From Microbacterium sp. BH-3-3-3 (GTDB taxonomy: Bacteria > Actinomycetota > Actinomycetes > Actinomycetales > Microbacteriaceae): 64,000 nt of DNA. A program made the position numbers and the translations under genes. The notes below the pieces were generated by a model, which did no database searches, was not told where the DNA came from, and saw only the letters and a program-made list of their open reading frames with translations. Shown in pieces: positions 43,983-55,082 of this stretch (position 1 is its first letter; each line of letters starts with the position of its first letter). The stretch lies in assembly GCF_007679045.1 (NCBI RefSeq), contig NZ_VEFS01000002.1:372001-436000 (forward strand), given 5' to 3'.

Positions 43983-44438
43983 CTACTGCTCGATCAGCTG
44001 AGGCGTGCTCTCGTGCGCCTCGATGGCACCGTCGTGCTCGTCGGTCGAGACGGCGATGCGGCGCGGCTTCGCCTTCTCGCTGACCGGGATCGTCACGCTC
44101 AGCACCCCGTTGCGGTACGACGCGCTGATGCCGTCGGTGTCGATGCCCTGCCCGAGGTTGAGCTGGCGGACGAACGACGCCGTCTCGCGCTCGCGCGTGA
44201 TCCACTTGACGCCCTCGCCCGAGCCGAGGGTGCGCTCGGCGCGGATCGTGAGCAGCTGGCCGTCGACGTCGATGTCGACCGAGCCGGGGTCGATACCGGG
44301 GAGGTCCGCCGCGAGCACGTAGTGGTCGCCGTCGCGGTAGAGGTCCATCGGCATCCGTCGCGGACCACCGCCGCGGCGGGCGTCGAGGAGCGTCGACGCG
44401 AGGCGGTCGAGGTCGCGGAAGGGGTCGTAGGTGGCCAT
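43983..44438 (-). CDS. hsp20: Hsp20/alpha-crystallin small heat-shock protein
   Basis: A 151-residue chaperone. The N-terminal arm MATYDPFRDLDRLASTLL precedes the alpha-crystallin domain (about 25-125), from MPMDLYRDGDHYVLAADLPG through GQLLTIRAERT and FVRQLNLGQGID to the signature NGVLSVTIPVSE. The C-terminal IXI-like motif is weak (PQLIEQ). It holds unfolding proteins during heat or oxidative stress. ATG 44438 has AAAGGAGAACGACC upstream. Both HAIR and CIRCE elements precede it, so HspR and HrcA are expected to repress it. Confidence 0.9.
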   Translation of the reverse strand: MATYDPFRDLDRLASTLLDARRGGGPRRMPMDLYRDGDHYVLAADLPGIDPGSVDIDVDGQLLTIRAERTLGSGEGVKWITRERETASFVRQLNLGQGIDTDGISASYRNGVLSVTIPVSEKAKPRRIAVSTDEHDGAIEAHESTPQLIEQ

Positions 44439-45779: not shown

Positions 45780-46613
45780 GTGACGGATGCCGCGACCACG
45801 ACGTCGCCCCTGCGGGCCCTGTGGGGGGCTACCCATCCGGGGCCCACGCTCGTCGTGACCGTCCTCTCACTCGCGCTGGGCATCGCGGCGGGGCTCGAGC
45901 CGTGGCGCCTGGGGCTGCTGGTCGTGGCGGTGTTCGCGGGGCAGGTCTCGGTCGGACTGTCGAACGACGCGATCGACGGCGCCCGCGATGCCGCGGTCGG
46001 ACGCACCGACAAGCCGATCGCGGGGGGAGCCCTCACCCCCGAGCGCGCGCTGGCCGTGGCCGTCGGAGCCCTCGTGGTCGCCCTGCTGCTCTCCGCACCC
46101 TTAGGGGCTGCTCTCGTCGCGGCGCACGCGATCGCCCTCGCCTCGGCCTGGGCCTACAACGCGGGCCTGAAGTCGACCCCGCTCTCGATCGTGCCGTTCG
46201 TGCTGAGCTTCGGTCTCTTCCCTTCGTTCGCGACCCTCGCCGGCCCCGACCCGGCGCTCGCCGCGCCGTGGGCGGCACTGGCGGGAGCCGCGCTCGGCGC
46301 CGCCGTGCACCTCACCAACGTCGTGCGCGACCTCGACGACGACCGCCGCACCGGCGTGCGCGGGTTGCCGCACCGCCTCGGTGCCCGCGGGTCGGTGCTG
46401 ATCGCCGCGGCCGGGATCGTGGTCGGAGCCCTGGCGGTGCTGCTCGGGCCGTCGGGTGGGGCGGATGCCGTCGGGGCGGTGTTCTTCGCGGCCGTGGTCG
46501 TGGTCGCGGTCGTCACCGCGGTGCTCGTGCTGGTGCGGCCCCCGGGACGCGCGGTGTTCCAGCTGACGATGCTCGCAGCCCTCCTGCTCGCCGCCCAGCT
46601 CGTCATCGCGTGA
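45780..46613 (+). CDS. UbiA-family prenyltransferase
   Basis: A 277-residue integral membrane protein with about eight helices. The first Asp-rich motif is NDAIDGARD (62-70), where N-x-x-x-D-x-x-x-D binds the prenyl diphosphate, and the second is DLDDDRRTG, both essential in the UbiA family. It transfers a prenyl chain to an aromatic or quinone-like acceptor. GTG 45780 is the start. It converges with the FAD monooxygenase of the type III PKS operon (10 bp apart), which suggests that the PKS product may be its acceptor. Confidence 0.83.
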   Translation: MTDAATTTSPLRALWGATHPGPTLVVTVLSLALGIAAGLEPWRLGLLVVAVFAGQVSVGLSNDAIDGARDAAVGRTDKPIAGGALTPERALAVAVGALVVALLLSAPLGAALVAAHAIALASAWAYNAGLKSTPLSIVPFVLSFGLFPSFATLAGPDPALAAPWAALAGAALGAAVHLTNVVRDLDDDRRTGVRGLPHRLGARGSVLIAAAGIVVGALAVLLGPSGGADAVGAVFFAAVVVVAVVTAVLVLVRPPGRAVFQLTMLAALLLAAQLVIA

Positions 46614-46623
46614 GAACTGCTCG

Positions 46624-47736
46624 TCAGGTTCCGGATGCCGCCCGGTCGAGGCGCATCGCGTAGGCCCGGGTGAACAGCGCGCCACCCGGTCCGCGCAGAG
46701 CGGTGCGGAGCGCGGCGGAACGGGCCGCGTGCGCCCGCGGGCCGGAGGCGCGGCCCAGCAGGGTGTTGAGGAAGGCGAGGCGCGCGGCGTGCCGGGCCGA
46801 CGCGAGGCGGTCGCGCTGCCAGCGATCCAGACCGGTCTCGTCGCCCCCGCGCACCCACGGCGCGAGCAGCGGGGCGAGGGTGAGCGCGTCGAGCAGTCCG
46901 AGGTTCATGCCCTGACCGCCGATCGGGCTCACCTCGTGCGCGGCGTCGCCGACGACGATCACCCGGCCGCGACGCAGTGCAGGAGCCACCGCGCGTCGCA
47001 CGCCGAAGCTCGACGCCCCGGCCGTGTCGACCTCGACCCCCGTTCGGCGCGCCACCGCGTCGTGCAGGAAGGCCGCGGCATCCGGAACCTCGTCCCGCCC
47101 GGCCCAGGCCACGAGCCTCCGACGTCCGTCGGGGAGGGGGAACGACTCGACCACGCCGTCGCGCTCGAGGTGCACGCGGGCGACCGGCCCTCCCGGCGCG
47201 GTGACGTCGGCCATGACGTAGCGATCGGGGTAGTGGTGGGTGCGAACGGCCCCGTCGCGGTAGACGAGGGAGCGTCCCGCCCATCCGGATGCCACGACCA
47301 CGACCTTCGCGCGCAGGTCGTCGGCCCCCGCGACGCCGACGCGCACGCCGTCCGCCTCCGCCCGCAGCGACTCCACGGTCACCCCGCGCCGCATTGGCGG
47401 GGCGAGGGCGGTCAGCACCTCGATCGTGTCGGACTGCGGCAGCGCCGCCACGTACGGGTGGCGCGCCCGCAGGCGATCGAAGCGGATCGCGGCGAGCAGG
47501 CGTCCGTCGGCTCGGGCCTCTCCGCGCGCGATCCGCACCGCTCGGTCGAGGATCCCGTCGGTGGCGCCCGAGGCCTCGAGCAGGGCGAGGGCGGGGGAGT
47601 GGATGCCGATCGCCCGCGTTCCCGCTCCGGCCTCGCTGCGACGTTCGACGAGGGCGACGTCGACGCCCCGCGCGCGCAGGTCGGCGGCCAACGCCAGCCC
47701 CACGGGGCCGGCGCCGACCACGAGCACCTCAGTCAT
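46624..47736 (-). CDS. FAD-dependent monooxygenase, SrsC-like
   Basis: A 370-residue group A flavoprotein hydroxylase: GAGPVGLALAADLRARG for the ADP moiety, a DG-like region, and GDAAHEVSPIGGQGMNLGLLDA at the FAD ribityl site. This is the pattern of aromatic hydroxylases. Its ATG overlaps the methyltransferase stop, so it is translationally coupled. By analogy with SrsC of Streptomyces it could hydroxylate the alkylresorcinol ring made by the PKS, giving a hydroquinone. The analogy rests on gene order and family, not on a direct alignment. Confidence 0.8.
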   Translation of the reverse strand: MTEVLVVGAGPVGLALAADLRARGVDVALVERRSEAGAGTRAIGIHSPALALLEASGATDGILDRAVRIARGEARADGRLLAAIRFDRLRARHPYVAALPQSDTIEVLTALAPPMRRGVTVESLRAEADGVRVGVAGADDLRAKVVVVASGWAGRSLVYRDGAVRTHHYPDRYVMADVTAPGGPVARVHLERDGVVESFPLPDGRRRLVAWAGRDEVPDAAAFLHDAVARRTGVEVDTAGASSFGVRRAVAPALRRGRVIVVGDAAHEVSPIGGQGMNLGLLDALTLAPLLAPWVRGGDETGLDRWQRDRLASARHAARLAFLNTLLGRASGPRAHAARSAALRTALRGPGGALFTRAYAMRLDRAASGT

Positions 47737-48436
47737 CGGCATCCGCCCGCCCTCGAGCCACGGCGAGCACCCGGAACGGCGCGGGGGTCTCCACCCGCCA
47801 GGGCGCGCCGAGGGCCGCTGCGAGCTCGGGCGCGCGATAGCTCCGCCGGATCGAGCGCAGCCCGTCGACCCGCAGGAAGGTGCCGGCGGCGAGAGGGGCG
47901 ATCCCCGCGGCGTACAGGGCGTAGGCGAGGCGCCCGCGGGCGATGTCGGCGTGCAGCACGCGTCCGCGCGAGAGGGCGAGCGAGTCGTCGGCGAAGCGCC
48001 GCAGCCCGTCGGCGTCGAGATGGTGCAGCACGTGGTTCGAGATCACGAGGTCGAACCTCTCGCCCGCGGCCAGCAGATCGTCCGACCCCTGCGCGACGAA
48101 CCGCACGCCGGATCGTTCCCGCTCGCGCGCGGCCTCGCGGGCACGCGGATCGGGGTCGGCTCCGACCCACTCCACCTCGAGTCCGTCTCGCGCGGCCAGC
48201 GCCGCCAGCCGCACCACGACGTCGCCGCCCCCGCATCCGAGGTCGAGCACGCGCGCCGGTCGGCCCAGGGCGCGCAGCTCGGGACGCACCCGCGTGCGGT
48301 ACACGTGCCCCCACGCCGAGACGAGACGGTTCACGACGTCGAACCGCCGATACGTCGCGGCGAGTGCGCGGGGGTCGCAGTCGGGGTCGTCCATCAGCTC
48401 GGTCAGCGCGGTGTCGCGCCGGGCCAGCGTGCTCAC
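47729..48436 (-). CDS. class I SAM-dependent methyltransferase
   Basis: A 235-residue Rossmann methyltransferase: motif I VLDLGCGGGDVVVRLA, acidic loop VGADPDPRA, motif IV FDLVISNHVLHHLD. GTG 48436 overlaps the PKS stop codon (GTGA) and its own stop overlaps the monooxygenase start, so three proteins are made in fixed ratio. The gene probably O- or C-methylates the polyketide aromatic ring. Homologues in type III PKS clusters are common in Microbacterium. Confidence 0.82.
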   Translation of the reverse strand: MSTLARRDTALTELMDDPDCDPRALAATYRRFDVVNRLVSAWGHVYRTRVRPELRALGRPARVLDLGCGGGDVVVRLAALAARDGLEVEWVGADPDPRAREAARERERSGVRFVAQGSDDLLAAGERFDLVISNHVLHHLDADGLRRFADDSLALSRGRVLHADIARGRLAYALYAAGIAPLAAGTFLRVDGLRSIRRSYRAPELAAALGAPWRVETPAPFRVLAVARGRADADD

Positions 48437-49527
48437 GCGCCGGTGCGGCGCATCGTCAGCCGCGCCGCCTCCACCGTGAGCCCCGGCCCGAACGCGAGGG
48501 CGGCCACCCTGTCGCCCTCGACGCGCTCCGCATCGGCCAGCAGGTCGCGCAGGATGAACAGCAGCGTCGCGCTCGACATGTTGCCGTGTCGGCGCAAAAC
48601 TTCGCGCGAGGGGGCGAGGGCGCTGGCATCCAGACCCAGGGCGTTCTCGACGCGGTCGAGGATGCTGCGCCCGCCCGGGTGCACGGCCCACGCGTCGACG
48701 GCCGAGAGGTCGCCCAGCACGTCGTCGGCGATGGCCGAGATCTCGCGACCGATGATCCGCGGAACCTCGGGGGTCAGGGTCATCTCGAACCCCGAGTCGC
48801 CGACCGTCCAGGCCATGTCCTTCTCGCCGTCGTCGGTCACATGGGTGGCGAACCCGTCGAGGTCGAGGCCGTCACGCGAGGAGTCTCCGGATGCCACGAC
48901 CGCCGCTCCCGCACCGTCGGCGAACACCGAGGCGGCGACGATCTGGTCGGGGTGCGAGGAGGTCTGCCAGTGCAGGGAGCACAGCTCGCAGCATGCGACG
49001 AGCACGACCGCCGCGGGGTCGTCGCCGACGATGCGGGCAGCGAGACGGAGGGCGGGAATGGCCGCCGCGCAGCCGATGAAGCCGAGGTGGTAGCGCTCGA
49101 CCGCCGGCGAGAGTCCGAGGTCGCGCACGAGGTGGTAATCGGGCCCGGGGGCGAACATGCCGGTGCACGACACCGTCACGACGTGGGTCACCGCGTCGGC
49201 CCCGTACCCCGAGCCCGACAGCGCCTCCCCGGCAGCCGCGGCGAAGAGGGCGGGCGCACGGCGGCGGTACTCATCGTTGCGCGCTCCCGTCGGGGGCATC
49301 AGCAGGGTGTCGCCGTCGCGCACCGGGAGCCCCTCGACCTCGGTGCCCGCCAGCTGCGGCAGCACGACGTGGCGAGTGTCGATGGCGGCGGCGTCGAACG
49401 CCGCGCCGACGAGGCGCTGGCTCTTGCGGTCGAACCCGGGTTGCGCGGCGAACAGGTCGCGCAATGTCGACTGGGAGACACGGGTATCGGGCAGGGCCGT
49501 GCCGATCGACACGATGCGGGCGGTCAT
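48433..49527 (-). CDS. type III polyketide synthase (chalcone-synthase-like)
   Basis: A 364-residue homodimeric ketosynthase. Catalytic Cys153 is in LGFIGCAAAIPAL, His283 in WAVHPGGRS and Asn316 in HGNMSSAT; the CTGMFAPGPDYHL loop is also typical. It condenses malonyl-CoA units onto an acyl-CoA starter to make alkylresorcinols, alkylpyrones or related rings; the product cannot be told from sequence. First gene of an overlapping three-gene operon (PKS, methyltransferase, FAD monooxygenase). ATG 49527 with AAGGTGAGG upstream. Confidence 0.9.
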   Translation of the reverse strand: MTARIVSIGTALPDTRVSQSTLRDLFAAQPGFDRKSQRLVGAAFDAAAIDTRHVVLPQLAGTEVEGLPVRDGDTLLMPPTGARNDEYRRRAPALFAAAAGEALSGSGYGADAVTHVVTVSCTGMFAPGPDYHLVRDLGLSPAVERYHLGFIGCAAAIPALRLAARIVGDDPAAVVLVACCELCSLHWQTSSHPDQIVAASVFADGAGAAVVASGDSSRDGLDLDGFATHVTDDGEKDMAWTVGDSGFEMTLTPEVPRIIGREISAIADDVLGDLSAVDAWAVHPGGRSILDRVENALGLDASALAPSREVLRRHGNMSSATLLFILRDLLADAERVEGDRVAALAFGPGLTVEAARLTMRRTGA

Positions 49528-49606: not shown

Positions 49607-50803
49607 TCAGACGGCGACCAGGTCCGCCAACAGTAGCCCCGCGATGGCTCCGCGGTAGTCGTCGATCATGCGCCGGCGGTCGAGGCGCCCGCGGGCGGCG
49701 ACGGCCGCGGCGCGCAGGGCGGGCCGGTGGGCGAGGGCGTGGGTCCACGCCGCCACGATCGACGACTCGTCGCGGGCGGTGACCAGGCCGAACCCGTCGA
49801 TCATGCGCGCGGCGTCGCCGACGTCGGTGGTGACGGGAACGGCTCCGGATGCCGCCCCCTCGACGAGACAGAGCGGCGAGGCCTCGCCGAAGGCACTCGT
49901 GAGGGCGACGATGTCGGCGATCCGGTACAGCTCGGGCATGTCCTCGCGCAGCCCGAGCGCGTGCAGGTTCACCGACTCGCCCACTCCGCTCTCGGCCCGC
50001 AGGGCGCGGAACGCGGGGTTGTCGGCCGTCATGCCCGAGCCGCACATGACGTAGTGCGCTCCGGGCGCGCGGCGCGCGTGCGTGGCGACCGCGCGGAGGA
50101 AGAGCCCGGGGTCCTTCATCGCGTCGAACCGCGCGGCGAGCAGCACGACGGGGGCGGAGTCGGGGATGCCGAGGCCCGCGCGGATGCGCCGGCGCTGCAC
50201 GCGCGTGCCGGGGCGGAAGCGTCGCGTATCGATGCCGTTGTCGATCACCCGCGCCTCGCGGGTGACGACACCGGCGTTCGCGTAGGCGAGCGAGGTCGAT
50301 TCGGCGCACGAGATCGTGGCGGTCACGGCGCCGCTGCCCGCGGCATCCGTCAACCACTCGAGAGCGGGGCCGGAGTGCGTCGGGTCGGAGCGGTGCAGGC
50401 ACGCGGCGATCGGGCGGTCGGGGAGCAGACCTGCACGCGCCAGCGCGACGACGAGGCTGAGCGGCTGCTCCTTCAGAGAGAGCACGACGTCGGCCTCGGT
50501 GAACAGGGCGGCGGCCCGGGCGAGCTCGGTCGCGGTGAACTCCTCGGGGGCGAGGGGACGATCGCCCACGATGCGGTCGAAGGTGTCGATGACGACCCCC
50601 GCCTGCTGCAGGCGGCGGAAGCGCGTGTCGTCACGGGCGAACTGCATCGAGGCGTCGCGACGCGCGGCGGAGGTGAGCGAGAGCACGCGGTGCTGCTGCG
50701 CCCCGCCCTGCGACAGGCCGGCGACCACGTCGGAGTGGAGGATGCGCGCCCCGCCGGCGAAGAAGCCCTCGTAGAGCGAGAGCACACGGATGGGTCGAGT
50801 CAT
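49607..50803 (-). CDS. glycosyltransferase family 4 protein
   Basis: A 398-residue GT-B enzyme. The N-terminal domain starts IRVLSLYEGFFAGGARILHS; the C-terminal nucleotide-sugar domain has the linker RVIDNGIDTRRFRPG, VVLLAARFDAMKDPGLFLRA and the E-x7-E acceptor of donor ribose in FGEASPLCLVEGAASG. It transfers a sugar to an unknown acceptor. ATG 50803 is the start of homology. It is transcribed in the same direction as the PKS operon, 79 bp upstream, so it could glycosylate that product. Confidence 0.83.
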   Translation of the reverse strand: MTRPIRVLSLYEGFFAGGARILHSDVVAGLSQGGAQQHRVLSLTSAARRDASMQFARDDTRFRRLQQAGVVIDTFDRIVGDRPLAPEEFTATELARAAALFTEADVVLSLKEQPLSLVVALARAGLLPDRPIAACLHRSDPTHSGPALEWLTDAAGSGAVTATISCAESTSLAYANAGVVTREARVIDNGIDTRRFRPGTRVQRRRIRAGLGIPDSAPVVLLAARFDAMKDPGLFLRAVATHARRAPGAHYVMCGSGMTADNPAFRALRAESGVGESVNLHALGLREDMPELYRIADIVALTSAFGEASPLCLVEGAASGAVPVTTDVGDAARMIDGFGLVTARDESSIVAAWTHALAHRPALRAAAVAARGRLDRRRMIDDYRGAIAGLLLADLVAV

Positions 50804-53588: not shown

Positions 53589-55082
53589 TCAGTGGCCCGC
53601 GCCGAGCTCTCCGCTGAGGCGGTCGTGGAAGCGCGAGGCGTGGTCGTTCATGCCCACCAGCTCGACCGTGGTGCCCACGTGCGCGTACTTCGTGCGCACG
53701 GCGTCGAGGGCGGCGACCGTCGAGGCGTCCCACACGTGCGAGCGCGACAGGTCGATGACCACTCGCGAGGGGTCGTCGTGGTACGCGAACTTCGTGGTGA
53801 GGTCGTTGCTCGAGGCGAAGAACAGCTCGCCCTCCACGGTGTAGCGGGCGACGTCGCCGCCGACCTCGCGCGTGACGCGGGTGAGGCTCGCGACGCGGCG
53901 GGCGAAGAGCACGGCGGCGGCGATCACGCCGACACCGACGCCGATGGCGAGGTTGTGCGTCCACACCGTCACGGCGACGGTGAGCACCATGACGATGGTC
54001 TCGCTCACCGGCATCCGCCGCAGAGTCGCGGGGCGGATGCTGTGCCAGTCGAAGGTGGCGACCGAGACGACGATCATGACGGCCACGAGCACCGCCATCG
54101 GGATGATCGCGACGACATCGCCGAACGCCAGAACGAGGACCAGCAGGAAGACGCCCGCGAGGAAGGTCGAGATGCGCGTGCGGGCCCCCGACGCCTTGAC
54201 GTTGATCATCGTCTGGCCGATCATCGCGCACCCGCCCATTCCGCCGAACAGGCCCGACAGCACGTTGGCGGCGCCCTGCCCGAGCGATTCGCGCGTCTTC
54301 GACGAGGGGGTGTCGGTGATGTCGTCGACCAGGGCCGCGGTCATGAGCGACTCGAGCAGTCCGACGATGGCCATGGCGATCGCGAACGGGAAGATGATCG
54401 CCAGCGTCTCGCCCGTCAGCGGGACGTTGGGCACGAGCGGCGCGGGAAGGCTCTCGGGAAGGGCGCCCTGGTCGCCGACGGTCGGCACCGAGATGCCGAA
54501 CACGACGACGGCGCCGGTCAGCAGCACGATCGCCACGAGCGGGGCGGGCACGACCTTGGTCAGGCGCGGAAGCAGGTACATGATCGCAAGGCCCGCCGCG
54601 GCGATCGGATAGACCGCCCACGGCACGCCGATCAGCTGGGGCACCTGCGCCGTGAAGATGAGGATCGCGAGCGCGTTGACGAAGCCGACCATGACGCTGC
54701 GCGGGATGAAGCGCATGAGCTTGGCCACCCCGAGCAGGCCGAGGATCACCTGCAGGAGGCCGCCGAGGATCACCGTCGCGAGCAGGTAGTCGACACCGTG
54801 CTCGCGGGCGACGGGGGCGATGACGAGGGCGATCGCACCGGTGGCGGCCGAGATCATCGCGGGGCGTCCGCCAAGGAACGAGATGGCGACCGCCATGACG
54901 AACGACGAGAACAGGCCCAGGCGCGGGTCGACGCCGGCGATGATCGAGAACGCGATCGCCTCGGGGATGAGGGCGATGGCGACGACGAGGCCGGCGAGCA
55001 CCTCGCGGGTGAGCAGGCGGGGGGAGCGCAGGGCCTGCAGGACGGTGGGCTCGGTGCGCGGGCGCGCGAGGGCAGAGGTCAT
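53589..55082 (-). CDS. SulP-family inorganic anion transporter with STAS domain
   Basis: A 497-residue protein with about 10-12 membrane segments (ALIPEAIAFSIIAGVDPRLGLF is the SulP signature) and a C-terminal STAS domain from about 395 (VEGELFFASSNDLTTKF, VVIDLSRSHVWDASTVAALD). Members move sulfate, bicarbonate or other anions, usually with Na+ or H+. The next gene, a MerR regulator, is divergent with 118 bp between. The substrate cannot be told. Confidence 0.87.
   Translation of the reverse strand: MTSALARPRTEPTVLQALRSPRLLTREVLAGLVVAIALIPEAIAFSIIAGVDPRLGLFSSFVMAVAISFLGGRPAMISAATGAIALVIAPVAREHGVDYLLATVILGGLLQVILGLLGVAKLMRFIPRSVMVGFVNALAILIFTAQVPQLIGVPWAVYPIAAAGLAIMYLLPRLTKVVPAPLVAIVLLTGAVVVFGISVPTVGDQGALPESLPAPLVPNVPLTGETLAIIFPFAIAMAIVGLLESLMTAALVDDITDTPSSKTRESLGQGAANVLSGLFGGMGGCAMIGQTMINVKASGARTRISTFLAGVFLLVLVLAFGDVVAIIPMAVLVAVMIVVSVATFDWHSIRPATLRRMPVSETIVMVLTVAVTVWTHNLAIGVGVGVIAAAVLFARRVASLTRVTREVGGDVARYTVEGELFFASSNDLTTKFAYHDDPSRVVIDLSRSHVWDASTVAALDAVRTKYAHVGTTVELVGMNDHASRFHDRLSGELGAGH

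Follow-up and report, generated by a model that had tools for sequence, protein, structure and literature searches.

The 64,000-nucleotide stretch of DNA considered here (the window) comes from Microbacterium sp. BH-3-3-3 (Microbacteriaceae; contig NZ_VEFS01000002.1, positions 372,001 to 436,000). Its subject of interest is a four-gene block at 45780-49527, in which a type III polyketide synthase (PKS), a methyltransferase (MT) and a flavin adenine dinucleotide (FAD) monooxygenase (FMO) are encoded on the minus strand with overlapping ends, and a UbiA-family gene (UbiA) converges on them from the plus strand. The four genes are:

48433-49527, minus strand: PKS, type III polyketide synthase of 364 aa, with PF00195 and PF02797 above the gathering score
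47729-48436, minus strand: MT, class I S-adenosylmethionine (SAM) methyltransferase of 235 aa with a GTG start, PF13649 above the gathering score; NF004851 (PRK06202)
46624-47742, minus strand: FMO, FAD-dependent aromatic monooxygenase of 372 aa; PF01494
45780-46613, plus strand: UbiA-family membrane prenyltransferase of 277 aa with a GTG start; PF01040

The PKS and MT genes overlap by 4 bp and the MT and FMO genes by 14 bp (8 bp if counted from the second ATG), and the UbiA and FMO genes lie tail to tail, 10 bp apart. These four reading frames, and that of a GT4 glycosyltransferase gene upstream of the PKS, are open throughout. The open frames and the Pfam matches bear out the gene content, start-to-stop overlaps and convergent UbiA of an earlier note made from the sequence alone. 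The nearest relatives of the block are Microbacterium records.

Each of the four products has features of its enzyme family. The triad of the PKS (C153, H283 and N316) is present in 90/90 relatives of the same kind, and its confident structural model has a type III PKS fold that matches solved type III PKSs. The MT scores 278 bits against NF004851, for which the cut-off is 243, and found weak matches only in a PDB sequence search. The FMO reaches 131.9 bits against PF01494 (cut-off 22), and in the PDB it matches aromatic hydroxylases and polyketide oxygenases. The UbiA protein scores 89.4 bits against PF01040, and its aspartate motifs are kept among relatives (N62-D63-D66-D70 in 79/79, D184-D188 in 80/80). 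Its model, with a predicted local distance difference test (pLDDT) score of 92.5, matches UbiA homologues, the top one by E-value being an archaeal lipid synthase; this fold match points to UbiA-type enzymes without naming an acceptor. No PDB sequence match to UbiA was found at E<=0.1, and the protein reaches no NCBIfam equivalog cut-off.

The block is conserved in near and distant loci, a point that the earlier note had proposed to check. Forty of 42 Microbacteriaceae-like loci (L037-L078) could be judged, L058 and L063 being too short. PKS, MT and FMO occur in the same order on one strand in 40/40 and UbiA lies on the opposite strand in 36/40, so the arrangement exceeds what would be expected by chance. 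In four of those 36 the UbiA gene is displaced, by ~7.6 kb past FMO in L050 and by 0.8-2.5 kb in L038, L039 and L054. The 14 more distant loci of this set (L065-L078) all retain the four genes; the UbiA genes of L048, L064 and L075 were overlooked by gene calling and are present in the locus comparison. Further afield, seven loci titled as six Bacteroidota groups and one Kuenenia (L079-L085) hold the PKS in 7/7, an MT match in 6/7 and an FMO match in 2/7, with UbiA found in 0/7, although gene calling is poor on such loci of low guanine-plus-cytosine (GC) content. One record titled Planococcus sp. APC 4015 (L070) carries the entire Microbacterium-like block and is probably mislabelled or contaminated.

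The genome comparisons show that UbiA is genomically coupled to type III PKS operons. Because the first-look candidates scored in these searches were limited in number, some genes may have been missed; UbiA was counted at E<=1e-35 within the family and at E<=1e-20 in the order outside the family. Sorting by E-value divided 299 family genomes into 117 with a PKS of the window kind, 101 with a weaker (Srs-like) match, five with a very weak one and 76 with none. UbiA was present in 51/117, 96/101, 3/5 and 5/76 of these, respectively, and the five PKS-less genomes with UbiA (G075, G099, G287, G290 and G294) also showed no PKS on a PF00195 check. In the order outside the family UbiA occurs in 70/301 genomes, all 70 of which carry PF00195; another 52 genomes have PF00195 without UbiA, and UbiA is found in 0/179 genomes that lack PF00195. 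The two genes lie within 6 kb of each other in 51 of the 70 genomes, across 8 families, and these 51 pairs are divergent in 39 cases, convergent in 6 and on the same strand in 6. The spacing can be tight: in L161 UbiA is the first of four genes and overlaps the PKS by 4 bp, and in the g51 genomes it is divergent from a window-kind PKS across a 46 bp gap. In G105 and G163 a convergent FMO-UbiA pair lies on a different contig from the PKS.

The link between UbiA and the PKS is weaker in the class than in the order. Among 269 class genomes outside the order, 146 carry UbiA; a PKS is also present in 98 of these, and 46 genomes have the PKS only; at the stricter E<=1e-35 the count is 81/96. At least 55 of the 98 genomes hold a UbiA-PKS pair within 3.6 kb, the pairs being chosen among matches listed on the same contig. 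The earlier note had held that conservation of UbiA apart from the PKS would speak against its reading. Such separation is absent from the order outside the family and rare in the family, whereas in the class outside the order a UbiA relative occurs in 48 of the 125 genomes without a PKS, and 26 of these 48 belong to a single family (f44, with genomes of 1.2-2.2 Mb). PKS-less genomes with UbiA relatives are frequently reduced, and two such UbiAs (L177 and L180) sit on long branches.

The PKS of the window and the Srs-like PKSs are two distinct kinds. Mean identity between the window PKS and 14 Srs-like PKSs, which also served as proxies for AgqA (discussed below), is ~30%, and the two kinds are fixed for different residues at two positions: C121 and H186 in the window kind (90/90), and V or I and T in the Srs-like kind (14/14). 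One Srs-like PKS matches Pks11 at 350 bits. The Srs-like operon, where complete, consists of PKS, an ICMT-type methyltransferase and an FAD enzyme, and in this it resembles the srs operon of Marisediminicola (PMC6669644). This order was found in four of the regions around eight Srs-like PKSs (L127-L134), and PKS-ICMT in L130; the ICMT identity of the PKS neighbour was confirmed in L128, and in L127 and L132 no PKS was called, gene calling again being poor on these low-GC loci. A profile of the window MT matches 0/19 ICMT proteins at E<=10, and one of the window FMO matches 19/19 Srs-like FAD enzymes, with a best E of 1.4e-19, as distant relatives. The two kinds of PKS rarely share a genome, the pattern to be expected if they substitute for one another. 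Multiple PKS matches were seen in 16 family genomes, and 2 of the 14 that were re-scanned (G073 and G008) have PKS matches in more than one place.

The place of UbiA in genomes with the Srs-like kind varies. The region L134, from the 1.8 Mb genome G030 (contig 1, 409000-425000), holds UbiA adjoining an Srs-like PKS and a partial FAD gene, and retention of the pair in so small a genome suggests that the lipid remains important when a genome is reduced. In other family genomes with Srs-like PKSs (L135-L142) UbiA is often distant from the PKS and lies in a recurring neighbourhood of genes that, by eye, include an MFS-type transporter, a quinone-oxidoreductase-like gene and lipase-like genes.

Phylogenetic trees connect the UbiA subtype with the kind of PKS. 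In a tree of 57 UbiAs a single branch (support 82) has all 36 from window-kind genomes on the same side, a grouping for which 0/500 shuffles gave a value as low; these 36 stem from three families (f1, f9 and f14) plus named Microbacteriaceae loci. Of the near-identical L037-L064 this tree retains L042, L052 and L060, and L067/L107 and L068/L108 are each one genome entered twice. A tree of 50 window-kind PKSs contains a clade of 23 without UbiA (support 97) and a second clade with UbiA in 19/22 (support 84); the window and two genomes of its genus belong to the UbiA-bearing clade, and three of its genus to the UbiA-less one. Both trees are quick ones, and the supports of 82 and 84 are below the starred level. 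The split of the UbiA tree, together with the presence of UbiA by PKS clade within one genus, indicates that UbiA tracks the kind of PKS and not simply the organism.

Several published systems resemble the block, and they are compared here as described in the available parts of the cited papers. In agqABCD of Actinoplanes missouriensis the UbiA-like AgqD O-prenylates an alkyl-methoxyhydroquinone (PMC3227686), and the products are alkyl-O-dihydrogeranyl-methoxyhydroquinones (PMC3569393; Awakawa et al. 2011, via citing papers); AgqA is listed alongside SrsA as a resorcinol synthase (PMC10896814). By that description agq and the window have in common a type III PKS, tailoring genes and a UbiA-like prenyltransferase; if AgqA is Srs-like, the window differs in having a PKS of another kind and an MT that is no ICMT. 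On this comparison agqABCD is the right precedent, and the window block appears to be an agq-like variant with a different PKS and MT. The srsABC operon of Streptomyces griseus comprises three genes, with no prenyltransferase described in the accessible account, and its SrsB is of the ICMT type; an srs operon of Marisediminicola is described in the same source (PMC6669644). The earlier note had likened the three minus-strand genes to SrsA/B/C. The likeness holds for the kinds of enzyme in one operon (PKS, methyltransferase and an FAD hydroxylase, the window FMO likewise being a PF01494 protein) but not gene by gene, because the window MT is of class I where SrsB is an ICMT, and the PKS is distant from the Srs-like ones. 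The hidABC operon of picocyanobacteria and a planctomycete operon also combine a methyltransferase, an FAD-dependent oxidoreductase and a type III PKS, leading to long-chain alkylresorcinols, and one of their methyltransferases seems to be a C-methyltransferase (PMC10896814); they differ from the window in the order methyltransferase-oxidoreductase-PKS and in that the description includes no UbiA. A type III PKS and tailoring genes have an annotated UbiA as their neighbour in the los locus of Micromonospora endolithica (PMC7587189) and in a UbiA-STS-ICMT-FAD cluster of Gephyromycinifex aptenodytis (PMC8779670). The latter (ctg1_2034 to ctg1_2037) looks agq-like, yet in the available text it is placed in an angucycline scheme. 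One case of a cyanobacterial PKS cluster with a prenyltransferase is also reported (PMC8086630).

The four genes probably encode an agq-like pathway to a prenylated phenolic lipid, because UbiA is coupled to the PKS and varies in subtype with the kind of PKS, because MenA and heme O synthase are encoded by other genes, and because AgqD provides a precedent. From an acyl starter and malonyl units the PKS would build a phenolic ring that is rich in electrons and probably belongs to an alkylresorcinol; MT and FMO would methylate and hydroxylate this to a (methoxy)hydroquinone. In the membrane, UbiA would then use a prenyl diphosphate to prenylate the ring or its oxygen, giving the prenylated phenolic lipid. 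The agq precedent is the basis on which we infer in what order the steps occur, which ring is made, how long the prenyl chain is and that it is attached to O rather than to C. A bolder and more tentative proposal, which we regard as possible rather than probable, is that the window-kind PKS, the class I MT, the FMO and the matched UbiA form a self-contained cassette distinct from agq, in which UbiA tracks the PKS subtype, and that this cassette has moved between actinobacterial families and yields an unrecorded class of prenylated lipids with a different ring or methylation.

Several observations weigh against an agq-like pathway. In Pks18, small residues line a tunnel that takes long-chain acyl starters. 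Of five such tunnel residues compared, the window PKS keeps one (C205, as C183); S143, N208, A209 and H221 are replaced by C121, H186, W187 and A199. UbiA is lacking in 66/117 window-kind family genomes, so that the core operates without UbiA there; it was not found nearby in the close relatives L043, L047, L049 and L051; and among the 146 UbiA-bearing genomes of the class outside the order, 48 lack a type III PKS. As to products, cultures of Phytohabitans strains carrying agq orthologues did not show the expected masses according to the accessible text of PMC7692728, and loseolamycins A1 and A2, obtained by activating losA in a locus that includes a UbiA gene, bear no prenyl group as described in PMC7587189. 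It is conceivable, though we consider it unlikely, that UbiA is coupled to a window-kind PKS that makes another head group, such as a pyrone, an acylphloroglucinol-like ring or a short-starter resorcinol, and that the product is no alkylresorcinol or alkylquinone. The low identity between the two kinds of PKS and their different residues at C121 and H186 would fit such a head group, as would an MT from a different superfamily than ICMT and the best PDB sequence matches of the window PKS, which are Steely1 and 2-pyrone synthase (~154 bits), ahead of Pks18 (144 bits). The two kinds, however, share the UbiA family and a PF01494 monooxygenase, and seldom occur in the same genome, as would fit stand-ins.

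The agq-like pathway has also to be weighed against roles for UbiA outside it and for further neighbours within it. One such reading makes UbiA an enzyme of menaquinone, carotenoid or heme O biosynthesis, in primary metabolism, with a coincidental placement next to the PKS. It could be argued from the convergent position of UbiA, in which it is not co-transcribed with the PKS operon, and from its relatives in PKS-less genomes of the family and class. The genome encodes a separate MenA and heme O synthase elsewhere, both above curated cut-offs, and on that ground the window UbiA is not assigned to menaquinone or heme O synthesis; the menaquinone alternative named in the earlier note is accordingly not borne out, UbiA belonging with the PKS. 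A further UbiA-family gene (L003) meets NF009608, which is named only as a prenyltransferase; L003 may be a lycopene elongase, an identity that the NCBIfam name does not confirm. With these genes present and UbiA adjoining the PKS across eight other families, a role in primary metabolism with a chance association is very improbable. An EboC/UbiA-297 identity, raised via the available text of PMC9235831, was set aside: the labelled neighbours suggest no ebo set, no ebo family search having been made. The gene upstream of the PKS is the following:

49607-50803, minus strand: GT4 glycosyltransferase of 398 aa, with PF00534 above the gathering score

It lies 79 bp upstream of the PKS on the same strand, and from this the earlier note had extended the pathway to a possibly glycosylated product. 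Window-like loci likewise have it upstream on that strand, and it is present in 28/29 of them. The extension is nevertheless not borne out and has hardly any likelihood left: GT4 was found in 0/14 of the more distant loci that keep the four genes (L065-L078, of which L066 offers just 1.6 kb upstream), and its distance from the PKS ranges from 77 to 3040 bp across loci. GT4 is probably a clade-limited neighbour outside the pathway; both it and a short-chain dehydrogenase/reductase (SDR) gene were ruled out as pathway members by their distribution across loci. Elsewhere in the window, frame 43983-44438 resembles an Hsp20-type heat-shock protein and frame 53589-55082 a SulP-type transporter, both as read by eye, with no family search.

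Prenylated type III PKS lipids are already known, and the idea itself is not new. Neither a window-kind branch with UbiA nor a general pairing of PKS and UbiA was found in the searches made, which covered open-access papers; single annotated cases exist. One described bacterial case of prenylation of a type III PKS lipid was found (agq), yet the UbiA-PKS pairing recurs across many families of the class. The chemistry behind plant cannabinoids is prenylation of resorcinol-like phenols. With the window-kind branch come a PKS clade for which no product was traced in the literature and candidate enzymes for prenylating such phenols. If the agq-like pathway is true, many clusters labelled as plain alkylresorcinol clusters would yield prenylated lipids, and the presence of UbiA together with the PKS subtype would indicate which clusters prenylate.

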